Source: Tolypeutes matacus
Lineage: Eukaryota; Chordata; Mammalia; Cingulata; Chlamyphoridae
Length of the DNA stretch: 64,000 nucleotides
Direction of reading: 5' to 3'
Assembly: GCA_026826555.1 (NCBI GenBank)
Contig: JAKSZT010017954.1
Coordinates: 6,745,144 to 6,809,143 of the forward strand
Shown here: in pieces, positions 33,006-55,370 of the stretch
Layout of the letters: the number at the start of each line of letters is the position of its first letter
How positions within the stretch are numbered: position 1 is the stretch's first letter
Program-made: the position numbers and the translations under genes
Notes under the pieces: model-generated
What the model was told of the DNA's origin: nothing
Database searches by the model: none
The model's input: only the letters and a program-made list of their open reading frames with translations

Positions 33006-33965
33006 GTTTTTTTTTTCTGTATGAATTGCTTTATTGTGATATACACTTTTTAAATTTTTAAACAATTTTTTTAAGTATATAATTCATACATGAACATACA
33101 TAAACTATAAGTGTTCAGTAAAAATCATGATCTTACAAAACAAACATGCATAACATCATACAGGGCTCCCACATATCACTCCCCAACAAACATCCTGCAT
33201 TGTTGTGAAACATTTGTTAACACATCATGAAAGAGCAGCGTCAAAGTATTACTACTAACTATAATCCAAATCTTCCTCCCCTATACATTTTTTAAAGGAT
33301 TTATTTATTTACTTTTATCCATTTTTACCCCCCCCCCTTTTTTCCTTGCTGTTTCTGTGTCCATTCGCTGGGCAACACTCTGTGTCCGTTTCCTGCCCTC
33401 TCTTCAAATCCTTCCTCCTCCTCCTTCACTGGATTGGATCCTTGGAACCTCCGATGTGGGAGAGAGGCATCCTACTACCACCTGCACCACCTTAGTTCCT
33501 GGTTTTTCAGTGCGTCTCATCTCGGCTCTCCCTTGCGTCACTCTATCGTCATCTTGCTGCGTGGCTTGCGGGGCCTGAGAGCTCACCCACTCGCGGGGCC
33601 TTGTAACATACCTGTGCACGGGGCCTGGTGGCCCATGCGCCTTCGATATTTTTCTTTTTTTATTTTTACCGGGAGGTCCAGGGGGTTAAACCCAGGTCCC
33701 TCCATATGGGAGACAGACACCCAACCACCCGAGCCCCATCCATCCCCCTGCTATAGCTCTTAAGGTTGACCAAAGATACCCAAAGTTACAGTGTTTTCCC
33801 ATACAGGATGGTCATATAATAAATCAGGCTTGGTATATCACCAGCATTCTAAAAACCAGACCAAGGGAGAAAAACTAGGTCTGGGGACCCATGCATGGTT
33901 TCTAATATAGCGAATGTTTAGCCTACCCTGATTACCACAAAGTCAGGAGAGCGAGAATATTCGCA
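33006..33965 (-). mobile_element. Composite SINE-VNTR-SINE-L1tail retroposon, copy 1
   Basis: Inserted into the RPS12 pseudogene with a perfect 15-bp duplication (32991-33005 and 33966-33980). In its own sense (minus) order it has a 5' module (33965 to about 33757), a DAS SINE (about 33756-33660) with A-rich linker, a 25-bp VNTR (33641-33570), a second DAS-III-like SINE ending in G/C-run and AAATAAATAAATCC (about 33530-33293), and a 3' module resembling an L1 3'UTR (about 33290-33061). Beyond the usual end it carries about 30 extra bases with their own AATAAA (33035-33030) before the poly(A). The 5' end coincides with those of copies 2 and 3. It has no open frame for mobility proteins, so it presumably depends on L1. 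Confidence 0.9.
33570..33641 (-). repeat. 25-bp VNTR of composite element copy 1
   Basis: Two full 25-base units and one 22-base partial unit, each beginning GGGGCCT on the plus strand. They are GC-rich and diverged from each other. Copies 2 and 3 have four full units. Confidence 0.85.
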
Positions 33966-34208
33966 TTGTAATGCAGTGTTAACATCCATTACACCTCCAG
34001 CAACAATGCCTTCCTTGGCCATGGCGGTTACGGGTGGAGCTGAATCTTGAAATCACCCGAGCCTCCGCCTCCACATCTCCGCAGCGGCAGGGAAAGAGCG
34101 AGAGATCTTTGGAAGACATAAAACTAAGAGACATTAGGTATGGAAGGGAAAGAAAACATCATTTAGTACATTTCCATGTCCATTATCAGTTTACCTGTGA
34201 AATTATCT

Positions 34209-34499
34209 TTTTTTTAAATAACTGCTTTATTCATAGCTGGTACACATACCACAAAGTTCACCCTTTAGTGTACTATTCAATGTATGGTTCAGTGCTTTTT
34301 TAGTATTTTCACAACCATCAAGTATATTGTTCGGACATCACCATTGTCTAATTCCAGAACATTTTCATCACCCTGAAAAGAAACCCATACCCATTCTTTG
34401 CTTCTCCCAGCCCTTGACAACCAGTAGTCTCCATTCTGTCTGTAGTTTTGCCTCTTCTGGACACTTCACCTCTGAAATATTCTAGTCATATGAGTCCAG
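34209..34499 (-). mobile_element. L1 3' end in antisense, with target-site duplication
   Basis: TTTTTTAAATAACTGCTTTATTC, at 34209-34231, leads into reversed L1M 3'UTR: AAAGTTCACCCTTTAGTGTA, TTTTCACAACCATCAAGTAT, CCAGAACATTTTCATCACCC, GACAACCAGTAGTCTCCATT. Related flanks TTACCTGTGAAATTATCT (34191-34208) and TTACCTGTTTAAATATCT (34500-34517) define the ends. Confidence 0.85.
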
Positions 34500-34610
34500 T
34501 TACCTGTTTAAATATCTTCAAATAAAACATTTCAAATGCTCTGGTGAGGGCTTCTGAGTCAGAAAGAGTTCACTTATGTCTGGCTTTCACTGAGATCACC
34601 CTTCTATACT

Positions 34611-34613
<3 letters not shown>

Positions 34614-34642
<29 letters not shown>

Positions 34643-52188: not shown

Positions 52189-52214
52189 CATAATGGGTTT
52201 TTTAAATCTTAGAA

Positions 52215-52645
52215 TCATCCTGGAAGTGCACTCGTTTTCTGAGTAAGGAAACTCAGGTAACGGACAATGAAGTAATGTTTCCAGGGTATCATAGCTCAGA
52301 ACATTTGGGACAGAGATTGAACCTACTTCTCTGTATGTGGAGGGCTGCTATACTTTTTCAGAGGGCATTTTAAATGGGATCTTCTTCTAGATAGAGGCTG
52401 GTAAATGAGCGAGAGAAAGCCTTGCACATAGGAAGAGCAAGCTTGTGAGACTCGTTCCCACATGGGTGCAGTTTTTCTCTAATCCACCACTTTTTACCTG
52501 TATCATCTTGGGCAACTTATGTGACCTTTCTGAGCTTCATTTGCTAATTGTAAGGTGAGGATAATCGTATCTACCACCACAGAGTAATTTTGGGAATTGC
52601 ATGGGAAGGAACCCACACTATGCCTACCATATTAGAGAGCCTCGA
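52215..52645. repeat. Two MIR fragments in opposite orientation
   Basis: About 52230-52360 reads as reversed MIR (GTAAGGAAACTCAGGTAACG, GGGACAGAGATTGAACCTAC). About 52495-52640 reads as sense MIR (CATCTTGGGCAACTTATGTG, CTGAGCTTCATTTGCTAATT). Confidence 0.65.
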
Positions 52646-53999
52646 TAGTCGGTAATGCCCAAGGATTTCCCTTGTCATCAGAGAATTTGTGCATTCCCCT
52701 AGGTGCACCCAAAAAGAATGCTTTTTTCCTTGGGGTCCCTTGTTTGGATTAAATTTTTTCCCCATAGAAATAATGCTATAGCTAGATGGGGCTTAGGTAT
52801 AGTTGAAATAGTACCATTAATAAATTCTGTCCTTCAAGGCATTTATACCCTGAATAGGACTTTCTGCGTAGGCCTGGGTATCAGGATTTCACAGGAGAGG
52901 TGCTCTAACCCCTTATTTACAAGTGAACTTTCACTGACCACCTGCTCAGAAGTTGCAGAATTGCTGCAACATTGCCCTGGGCAGGGTATGGGACCAGAAA
53001 ATAAATAAAAGACAGCAGGGTACTGGGATTTCCAGAACACTGAGAAGAGCATGCTGCAATTTCTTTCCATTCCTACTAGACCTCCCCCAGGCAGAGCCGC
53101 AGCTGACCAACCACGTTTATACTTGAAATTAAGGAACCCCCTGCATCCTGCACCCTGGGTCCCACTGCTGTTCTCAATGTGGGTTGCTAATTTAAATGCC
53201 ATTCCCTGGCACTTCATGTTGAAACACACTTTCTCTCATTAGGTCATTGGATGTCTGCCTGTTGCCTGCCTGCCCACCCTAGCCAAGGATCTGCCTTCCA
53301 GTGTGAGCCCTGGATGTAAAAATACCCTAAAGATAAAACAGAGACCCTAACTCTGGTGTTTCCAGACACCCAGTCATTCTCTTCCATTCACTCTTTTAAC
53401 AAAAGAACTTACTTCGGAAGAGGTGAGGAATGGGGGCATCTCTCTGGCTCCTTATGGGGTCTTCTTTCTAGAAGAAACTGAGCAGAATCAGAAAAGAATA
53501 AATAAGGAAGTCTTGGCAGAATGTTTTGATACAAAATTCATTACAGCTTTGTTTATGTGCTGGGCAATTTGGGCCCTCTTAAGTATGTGTAGATACTACA
53601 GTCCTTCTGGTTCAACTTTTGTGTTTAGGGAGAGGTTTTGGAAGGAGAACAAAGATGTCAGATTACTGGCCTGTTTCTTAAAGAACTGATTTGGGAAAGG
53701 CTTAAAAACATTCATACCCGACTCGAAAACAAGAAGCAGGAATGAATCCAGAAAGCTTGGTAACATGAATAGTAGTTGTACTATATTTTAAGAAAAAGAG
53801 AATTTGGATGTCTTCTGTGTACCCTGTCTCCTTTATCTCCATACTCACTCGCTCTCTAAGATCTCCCAGGTCCCAGTCTATATTTTTCTTTTCCATAATA
53901 CCTTTTAAGCCTTTAGTGTAGAATCCATCATCTGTCACTCCACCCTCACCCTTGAGTGGGCAAAGGATATAGTAGGAGTCATTGGAATCCATTGGGGTC
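52646..53999. other. Unassigned stretch
   Basis: No gene recognised. The 128-codon minus-strand open frame at 52843-53229 overlaps open plus-strand frames and shows no domain. Confidence 0.5.
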
Positions 54000-54200
54000 G
54001 TATTTAAAGAGGAGATAAGGGCCTAAGTTTAAACCCTGACCTCTCCACTTAAGTGGTATAACACTCAGCCCTACCACTTATGCTCTCGGAGTTACAGTTT
54101 CCTCATATGTAAAATCTGAAAATAAAACTACTCAAAGAATTGTTAGGAAAAGTAAATGAATTTCACCCATATTTTGTGTGCCTGTCAAGTGCCAGTAGAG
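54000..54200 (+). repeat. MIR SINE
   Basis: Sense MIR: AAACCCTGACCTCTCCACTT, GAGTTACAGTTTCCTCATAT, GTAAAATCTGAAAATAAAAC, GAATTGTTAGGAAAAG. Confidence 0.7.
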
Positions 54201-54408
54201 TCACATCCCAGTGCAGTGCAGTGCCTGGTCCATGGTGCAAGCCTCCAGATGGTTCATTCCTTTCTTCTCTAGTGATGGCCCTTTCACGAAAAGTTCTCTT
54301 CAGGTGTGGTTTGTAGTACATGCGCTGTATTTTTAATGCACTTACAAGAATGTTTATCAACCTTTTGTTCATTATGTGTGTCTCCCCCTCCCTCCAAGGA
54401 GCCTTTTT

Positions 54409-55370
54409 TTTTAAACAATTTATTGAAGTATTCATACATGAACATACATAAACAATAAGTGTTCAGTAAACATTGTGAACTTACAAAACAAACATGCATA
54501 ACATCATACAGGGCTTCCACACATCACCCCACCACAAATACTTTGCATTGTCGTGAAACATTTGTTAACAAATTATGAAAGAGCATCGTCAAAGTATTAC
54601 TACTAACTGTAGTCCGTATCTTACTCCCTTATACTTTTTTTTAAGGATTTATTTATTTACTTACTTACTTTTATCCATTTTTATCTGCCCCCCCTTGCTG
54701 TTTTTGTGTCCATTTACTGGGCAACTCTTGGTGTCCATTTCCTGCCCTCTCTTCTCATCCTTCTTCTCCTGTCTTCACTGAGATTTGATCGTTGGAACCT
54801 CTGATTTGGGAGAGGGCCTACCCACCGCCTGTGCCACCTTAGTTCCTGGCTTTTTGGCACGTCTCATCTTGGCTCACCGCTGTGTCACTCTCCTGTTATG
54901 TCATCATCTTGCTGCATGCAGGGCCTGGTGGTGCACCCAGGCACAGGGCCTGACGGCACACCCACTTGTGGGGCCTGGCGGCACACCCGTGCACAAAGCC
55001 TGAGGGGCCCACCCGCTTGCAAGGCCTGATGGCCCGTGTGCCTTCTATATTTTTCTTTTTTTTATTTTTACCAGGAGGTCCCAGGGATCGAACCCAGGTC
55101 CCTCCATGTGGGAGACGTACACCCAACTATTTGTGCCACATCTGTCTCCCTGCTCTATCTCTTAAAGTTGACCAAAGATACCTAGAGTTAAAGTCATTTC
55201 CCATACAGGGTGGTCATATAATAAATCAGGCTTAGTTTATCACCAGCATTCTAAAAGCCAGACCTATGGATAAAAACTAGGTCTGGGCACACACGCATGG
55301 TTTCTAATATAACGAATGTTTAGCCTACCCTGATTATCACAAAATCAGGACAGCGAGAATATTCACAGCA
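54409..55370 (-). mobile_element. Composite SINE-VNTR-SINE-L1tail retroposon, copy 3
   Basis: Same order and same 5' end as the copies at 33 and 36.5 kb. Minus-strand order: 5' module (55370 to about 55157), DAS SINE (about 55155-55070), 25-bp VNTR (55042-54920), DAS-III-like SINE (about 54890-54645), and L1-3'UTR-like tail. It is flanked by AAGGAGCCTTTTT at 54396-54408 and again at 55371-55383. The tail keeps an intact AATAAA (complement at 54419-54424). A third copy of the same target sequence follows the SINE immediately downstream. Confidence 0.93.
54920..55042 (-). repeat. 25-bp VNTR of composite element copy 3
   Basis: Units start at 54920, 54945, 54970 and 54995 (the last is 26 bases), plus a partial at 55021. 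They share GGCCTG and CACCC cores. Confidence 0.9.

Follow-up and report, generated by a model that had tools for sequence, protein, structure and literature searches.

Platypus snoRNA-RTE retroposons (snoRTE), whose original description is reportedly that of Schmitz et al. in 2008, are by their head-and-tail plan the nearest relative of the element described here, a composite retroposon that begins with the small nucleolar RNA (snoRNA) SNORA72 and ends in L1 sequence. Three copies of it lie in a 64,000-nucleotide stretch of the genome of the armadillo Tolypeutes matacus (contig JAKSZT010017954.1, positions 6,745,144 to 6,809,143), hereafter the window. Papers given by PMC number are cited from excerpts. 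SnoRTE is a composite of a snoRNA and the 3' end of RTE with about 40,000 copies (PMC5322556), and its snoRNA is of the H/ACA type (PMC4233971). In platypus and armadillo alike, a snoRNA and the 3' end of a long interspersed element (LINE) form one unit that is present in many copies. The partner in platypus is RTE, whereas the armadillo element has SNORA72, an L1 tail and a poly(A) end. The armadillo element also has two short interspersed element (SINE) parts with a variable number of tandem repeats (VNTR) of 25-bp units between them.

The hominoid VNTR composites SVA, LAVA, PVA and FVA share a 5' CT hexamer and an Alu-like region (PMC4432496), and 1389 5' and 748 3' transductions were counted in 7554 human SVA insertions (PMC10681720). 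The armadillo element resembles these composites in being non-autonomous and built of unrelated modules, in its variable GC-rich VNTR, in L1-type insertion and in likely 3' transduction (PMC4432496, PMC10681720); LAVA in addition ends 3' in a part derived from L1ME. A previous reading of the window from its letters alone (the sequence-only reading) had called the copies SVA-like, which stands for the VNTR composite and the L1-type insertion but not for the 5' end. The armadillo element starts with an H/ACA snoRNA, SNORA72, and has neither CT hexamer nor Alu-like 5' part; its 5' end is largely constant, whereas 5' transductions are common in SVA, and its VNTR unit is 25 bp.

Chimeras of U6 or U3 with L1 also place a small nuclear or nucleolar RNA 5' of L1 sequence, but the U6/L1 joins are separate events, usually without propagation (PMC13174262), whereas the armadillo element is a single join found at 12,473 places. 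In SPA long noncoding RNAs (lncRNAs), a small nucleolar ribonucleoprotein (snoRNP) blocks XRN2, giving RNAs with a 5' snoRNA and a polyadenylated 3' end, and the H/ACA snoRNA SNORA5C can substitute for a C/D snoRNA in their formation (PMC11028025). This is the RNA form that would be expected of the armadillo element, and the 5' ends of its insertions fit it; SPA lncRNAs, however, are host transcripts, and the excerpt of PMC11028025 does not describe mobility. No description of a SNORA72-headed composite was found among the titles and abstract openings listed for open-licence PMC papers, in capped lists that came partly from unspecific terms; repeat libraries may already name it.

The three window copies are all on the minus strand, with the poly(A) end at the low coordinate, and align end to end with pairwise identities of 79-82%. 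In the orientation of the element, the order of modules is SNORA72 (133 nt), a spacer (79 nt), a tRNA-derived SINE part, a GC-rich VNTR of 25-bp units, a second SINE-like part with an A-rich end, an L1 3' untranslated region (UTR) tail and poly(A). Sequence and end-to-end alignment thus confirm the places and common module order given by the sequence-only reading, as well as the 13-16 bp target duplication that it ascribed to each copy. The features are as follows.

Copy 1
32991..33005, no strand: left target duplication, 15 bp exact, pairs with 33966..33980
33006..33965, minus strand: composite retroposon copy 1, host an RPS12 processed pseudogene (sequence, pairwise alignment, RPS12 frame)
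33006..33054, minus strand: additional 3' stretch holding AATAAA and poly(A), probably a 3' transduction (sequence, alignment)
33055..33304, minus strand: L1 3' UTR tail (module alignment, comparison with L135)
33299..33562, minus strand: second SINE-like part with A-rich end (alignment)
33563..33648, minus strand: short GC-rich VNTR (alignment)
33649..33753, minus strand: tRNA-derived SINE part, DAS-like (alignment)
33754..33832, minus strand: spacer, its first ~12 nt common to other SNORA72 retrocopies (module alignment)
33833..33966, minus strand: head, SNORA72, model 1-132 (Rfam 129.8 bits, alignment)
33966..33980, no strand: right target duplication, 15 bp exact

Copy 2
36444..36459, no strand: left target duplication, 16 bp, two mismatches to 37433..37448
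36460..37432, minus strand: composite retroposon copy 2 (sequence, pairwise alignment)
36458..36718, minus strand: L1 3' UTR tail with poly(A) (module alignment, comparison with L135)
36719..36987, minus strand: second SINE-like part (module alignment)
36988..37116, minus strand: VNTR of 25-bp units (Tandem Repeats Finder (TRF) 37001-37100, module alignment)
37117..37222, minus strand: tRNA-derived SINE part (module alignment)
37223..37299, minus strand: spacer (module alignment)
37300..37433, minus strand: head, SNORA72 (Rfam 140 bits, alignment)
37433..37448, no strand: right target duplication, 16 bp, two mismatches

Copy 3
54396..54408, no strand: left target duplication, 13 bp exact
54409..55370, minus strand: composite retroposon copy 3 (sequence, pairwise alignment)
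54408..54652, minus strand: L1 3' UTR tail with AATAAA (module alignment, comparison with L135)
54653..54909, minus strand: second SINE-like part (module alignment)
54910..55049, minus strand: VNTR (TRF 54919-55003, module alignment)
55050..55155, minus strand: tRNA-derived SINE part, 87% identical to the SINE at 52088-52188
55156..55234, minus strand: spacer (module alignment)
55235..55368, minus strand: head, SNORA72 (Rfam 131.3 bits, alignment)
55371..55383, no strand: right target duplication, 13 bp exact

The Rfam covariance model of SNORA72 (RF00139) matched all three copies over positions 1-132 of 132, with 129.8-140 bits compared to the gathering cut-off of 43, and no other match at gathering level was obtained in the window. 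By this model the first module of the composite, rightly seen as a module but taken as unknown by the sequence-only reading, is a complete H/ACA snoRNA. The window's own assembly (3.6 Gb, 5002 contigs; stretches and contigs are given below by L and C numbers) was then searched with a pattern of 42 letters across the join of SNORA72 and spacer, allowing at most 3 mismatches. The junction was found at 6229 + 6244 = 12,473 places and the reversed control at 0, which excludes chance; the sequence-only reading had argued from the target duplications against a chance pile-up of SINEs. A 42-letter tail pattern was found at 17,758 places (control 0), a count that takes in L1s as well.

Copies were sampled from the genome by several queries. 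Among the best 40 of 11,791 first-look candidates for a full copy, the long matches besides the window copy were 82-87% identical. The SNORA72 head was present in 27 of 30 stretches cut out from the best 40 tail matches (26/29 without window copy 3), and SNORA72 lay upstream in 19 of 20 fetched from the best 40 spacer matches, L076 keeping just its final bases. When SNORA72 itself was the query, 20 of the 37 rows other than L061-L063 were fetched: 17 continue into spacer and SINE (the spacer of L105 is shortened), L099 reaches the first part of the spacer only, and two have another body. A sample not ranked by similarity consisted of 16 of the 21 exact tail-match rows on contig C3; the final three rows were left out, as were two with a junction match ~630-700 bp upstream. 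It held nine composites with head, three 5'-truncated composites and four non-composites. Nine of its 12 composites, drawn without regard to the head, thus have the common 5' end, and the case in which most copies would lack it, named by the sequence-only reading as one that would overturn it, did not hold.

The 5' end of the element coincides with that of the snoRNA. All nine heads in the contig C3 sample start within 3 nt of it. Of 56 heads examined in the first set, 47 begin at nt 1-2 of the snoRNA model; this set excludes two loci that repeat window copies (L001 is copy 2, L031 is copy 3 fetched again) and those lacking a head (L051, L058, L059 and the composite by which L023 was scored). 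The base preceding the head start is variable (A 23, T 10, G 10, C 8; n=51), so the constant part truly begins at the snoRNA 5' end. Across 53 head-bearing copies from genome and window, a duplication with a score of at least 9 adjoined the head in 35, compared to 9 of 265 shuffled flank pairings. In L009 and L034 it was also found after skipping a later insertion, giving 37/53 placed at the head; stretches holding two copies, L023 among them, were scored by the better tail only. No clear case of 5' transduction was seen in the 53 copies, 37 with a duplication at the head and 16 without, L049 being one of the 16. When the search was widened to displaced target duplications, L026 and L055 had matches 92 and 382 nt upstream, which are chance-like against a control of 22/200 random pairs.

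The three window sequences are three separate insertions of one element. In the orientation of the element, copy 1 was inserted at TGTT|AACA, copy 2 at AGTT|AAAA and copy 3 at AAAT|AAAA; TT|AAAA-like sites of this sort are the kind cut by the L1 endonuclease. Copy 1 splits an RPS12 (eS12) processed pseudogene at about 32649-34040 on the minus strand. Removal of copy 1 and one duplication yields a 132-aa RPS12 frame closed by a stop codon, so the empty site is clean; the larger flanking open reading frame (ORF) beside it aligns with eS12 of solved structures (E 9e-69).

The tail was traced through L135, in which the C-terminus of L1 ORF2 (tblastn E 1.8e-19), ~0.4 kb of 3' UTR and the tail sequence follow one another within 1.15 kb. 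The tail is therefore the end of the 3' UTR of an L1 of this genome, as its earlier description as L1-3'UTR-like had implied, and an ORF2 piece also precedes the tail in L128 (E 6e-9). The copies themselves did not prove to be parts of a longer L1 or endogenous retrovirus, the other case that would have told against the sequence-only reading. AATAAA lies within the last 60 nt in 50/60 tails. Copy 1 has about 45 bp of additional 3' sequence with its own AATAAA ahead of the poly(A), which from its sequence looks like a 3' transduction.

Divergence from the module consensus at non-CpG sites in 50 composites was 3.2% in the head, compared to 5.4% in the spacer, 7.2% in the first SINE, 6.0% in the second SINE and 5.4% in the tail (paired tests, p < 5e-5). 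Non-CpG singletons per kb were even across modules, as expected of neutral decay after insertion (head 14.3, other modules 13.8-16.6; odds ratio (OR) 0.95, p 0.73). Variants common to at least 5 copies most likely passed through source elements, and these were depleted in the head, at 3 per 127 sites compared to 67 per 652 elsewhere (OR 0.21, p 0.002; head vs spacer plus tail alone, OR 0.22, p 0.006). This depletion is the best evidence for a role of the head in the cycle, and on these comparisons the snoRNA head seems to be needed for spread.

Simpler SNORA72 retrocopies share the 5' end. L063 (type A) consists of SNORA72, TAAGAC and poly(A); type B consists of SNORA72, TAAGACTGATTT, about 35 nt ending in AAATAAATAAATCTTT, and poly(A). 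The type B junction pattern was found at 33 places genome-wide, and C4975, from the type B query, brings the known number to 34. The snoRNA 5' end is reached in 25/34 (24 by match start, L148 by reading), and target duplications were present in 13 of 18 examined, all chosen for reaching the 5' end. Five matches to the type B query are longer (250-274 nt), with an AATAAA-type end in L109 and L111. One snoRNA 5' end is thus found on three bodies, plain, ~185 nt and composite. Composites and type B have the 12 nt TAAG(A/C)CTGATTT in common and diverge afterwards. Head column 40 is C in Rfam, in L063 and in 14/19 type B copies, and T in 79/88 other heads, every head outside types A and B being taken as composite in this count. 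Types A and B thus tend, on this column, to retain the older state, and the same column speaks against the idea, considered and dropped, that type B arose from the composite by simple deletion. By eye, type B has a short 3' part similar to the end of the composite's second SINE. We infer that a snoRNA retrocopy lineage later acquired the composite body. L110 is type B-like, without poly(A) at the usual place or a clear target duplication, and is a possible source locus of the ~255-nt class.

Collectively, these results describe a non-autonomous composite retroposon with a SNORA72 head and an L1 3' UTR end. It likely spreads through an RNA, with a snoRNP fixing and shielding the 5' end and L1 copying the polyadenylated 3' end, a reading to which we give a probability of roughly 0.6. 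A sense copy would be read through within an RNA polymerase II (Pol II) transcript, H/ACA proteins would bind the snoRNA head, and 5' exonucleases would halt there, as in SPA lncRNAs. The AAUAAA of the L1-derived tail would direct cleavage and poly(A) addition, and L1 ORF2p would nick TT/AAAA-like sites and reverse-transcribe the RNA, often to its end, leaving full-length copies with one 5' end. Along such a path the element would need no promoter of its own. Transcription, snoRNP binding, the exonuclease stop and the action of L1 in trans are inferred steps. The head consensus contains T5 runs, and such runs stop Pol III. A snoRNP-set 5' end with L1 copying is the most likely route because of these runs, the terminal poly(A) signal, the 5' end at the snoRNA end, the lack of a clear 5' transduction and the existence of SPA-type RNA.

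Several observations weigh against this reading. Identical 5' ends would also be expected if all copies stemmed from one source locus driven by an outside promoter. Nine of 34 type B copies start inside the snoRNA (five by match start, four by reading), and composites too are incomplete: 3/12 on contig C3 and, in the tail-query set of 30, three headless copies as well as L041 and L045, which start well inside the head. With the cut for shared variants at 3 copies, the head differs from spacer plus tail only at p 0.054, and every genome copy in the variation test was chosen for its likeness to window copy 2 or to the copy 3 tail, which means that subfamily sampling could sway the shared-variant counts. 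The head boxes have decayed (H box ATATTA in 36/50, GATAAAC in 43/50), though this is expected of dead insertions. The 79-nt spacer was traced to no known source. No parental SNORA72 gene was found with an Rfam-consensus DNA query and the type B query, which gave retroposed or composite copies wherever flanks were read, except L110; an RPL30 protein, used as query, had no match in L061-L063 and L107-L111.

The snoRNP-set 5' end allows a broader proposal, which we make tentatively and hold to be somewhat short of an even chance. The element may represent a class of retroposons that bring an H/ACA snoRNA as their own 5'-end maker in place of a promoter, such that any intron hosting a sense copy could yield L1 templates that are full-length, snoRNP-capped and polyadenylated. 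The snoRNA of source copies would be kept intact by selection, snoRNP assembly would belong to the transposition cycle, and bodies of any kind (SINE, VNTR, L1 tail, 3'-transduced DNA) could be built behind it.

Alternatively, the element may be an SVA-like composite spread as an ordinary Pol II transcript, the snoRNA being a mere passenger and the 5' end coming from one or a few source loci with an outside promoter. One 5' end would be expected from few source loci too, and the VNTR-bearing order is SVA-like (PMC10681720, PMC4432496). We nevertheless consider this unlikely, given that shared variants are depleted in the head, that plain, ~185-nt and composite bodies have the identical 5' end, and that no clear 5' transduction was seen in 53 copies compared to 1389 in 7554 human SVA insertions. 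Types A and B, together with 3' read-through in copy 1 and L038, fit a different history, in which snoRNA precursors were retroposed and the composite was born from a copy that had inserted 5' of SINEs and an L1 end, with transcription running on to the following poly(A) signal; the snoRNA would now be inert. This covers the origin but does not explain why the head has so few shared variants, and as an account of the present element it is improbable. Recurrent template switching, in which the L1 reverse transcriptase would join SNORA72 RNA to L1 or SINE RNA anew at each insertion, is known for L1 with U6, U3 and 5S RNAs (PMC13174262) and may account for the founding joins, but is very improbable for the family, since fresh joins would scatter the junction rather than give one junction at 12,473 places and a fixed multi-module body in the sampled copies.

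If the snoRNP-set 5' end is correct, VNTR composites are no hominoid peculiarity, and a snoRNA can be the indispensable 5' module of a successful retroposon that depends on L1. The ideas of the snoRNA-LINE retroposon and of the VNTR composite would be united in a single element that has over 12,000 head junctions. With many copies and a body only 5-7% diverged (50 copies), the needs of a promoterless full-length retroposon become directly testable. The results also suggest that most SNORA72 annotations in such genomes may be heads of retroposons.

Of the body modules, the first SINE part is 82-87% identical to window 52088-52188, which contains an ARAGORN tRNA-Gly call. It is putatively DAS, the armadillo SINE, on whose features the xenarthran identity rests. 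The name DAS SINE occurs as a reference title in PMC13174262. TRF called the 25-bp VNTR in copies 2 and 3 and made no call in copy 1, which holds fewer units. In the sampled copies, the spacing between the two SINE parts mostly follows a 25-bp ladder (~69, 94, 119, 144, 170, 196, 220, up to 324; range from 68), which agrees with the variable VNTR length that the sequence-only reading had foreseen. Some spacings fall off the ladder, probably through small indels and alignment limits. An L1 3' UTR interrupted by DAS SINEs was considered as the origin of the body; a joined spacer-plus-tail query gave no uninterrupted copy in the best 40 of 1294 candidates, and the spacer is therefore not assigned to L1.

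Individual copies showed further features. L049 has a partial tandem repeat of the snoRNA head, covering its first 22 nt. L048 and L052, 162 kb apart in opposite orientation on contig C2196, have a common flank and duplication and are likely one insertion in an inverted segmental duplication. The type B copies L114 and L116 share an L1 ORF2-like 3' flank, perhaps a preferred site within L1. A tRNA-derived SINE at window 55377-55598 directly adjoins copy 3, and AAGGAGCCTTTT is present three times at copy 3 and this SINE, so one site was used by two insertions.

The window also contains L1 sequence of its own. An L1 at 1165-2715 on the plus strand comprises the C-terminal part of ORF2 (1165-2546) and a short 3' UTR; it was considered as the source of the tail and rejected, as this 3' UTR differs from the composite tail. 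L1-type ORF2 remnants at 17596-17904 and 45753-47212, both on the minus strand, are 31-71% identical to it. An older stretch at 22309-22438 on the minus strand, only 66% like the tail, is likely an old L1 3' UTR. Elsewhere in the genome, L132 and L136 are L1 3' UTRs with, as judged by eye, tandem copies of a ~240-bp unit containing the tail.

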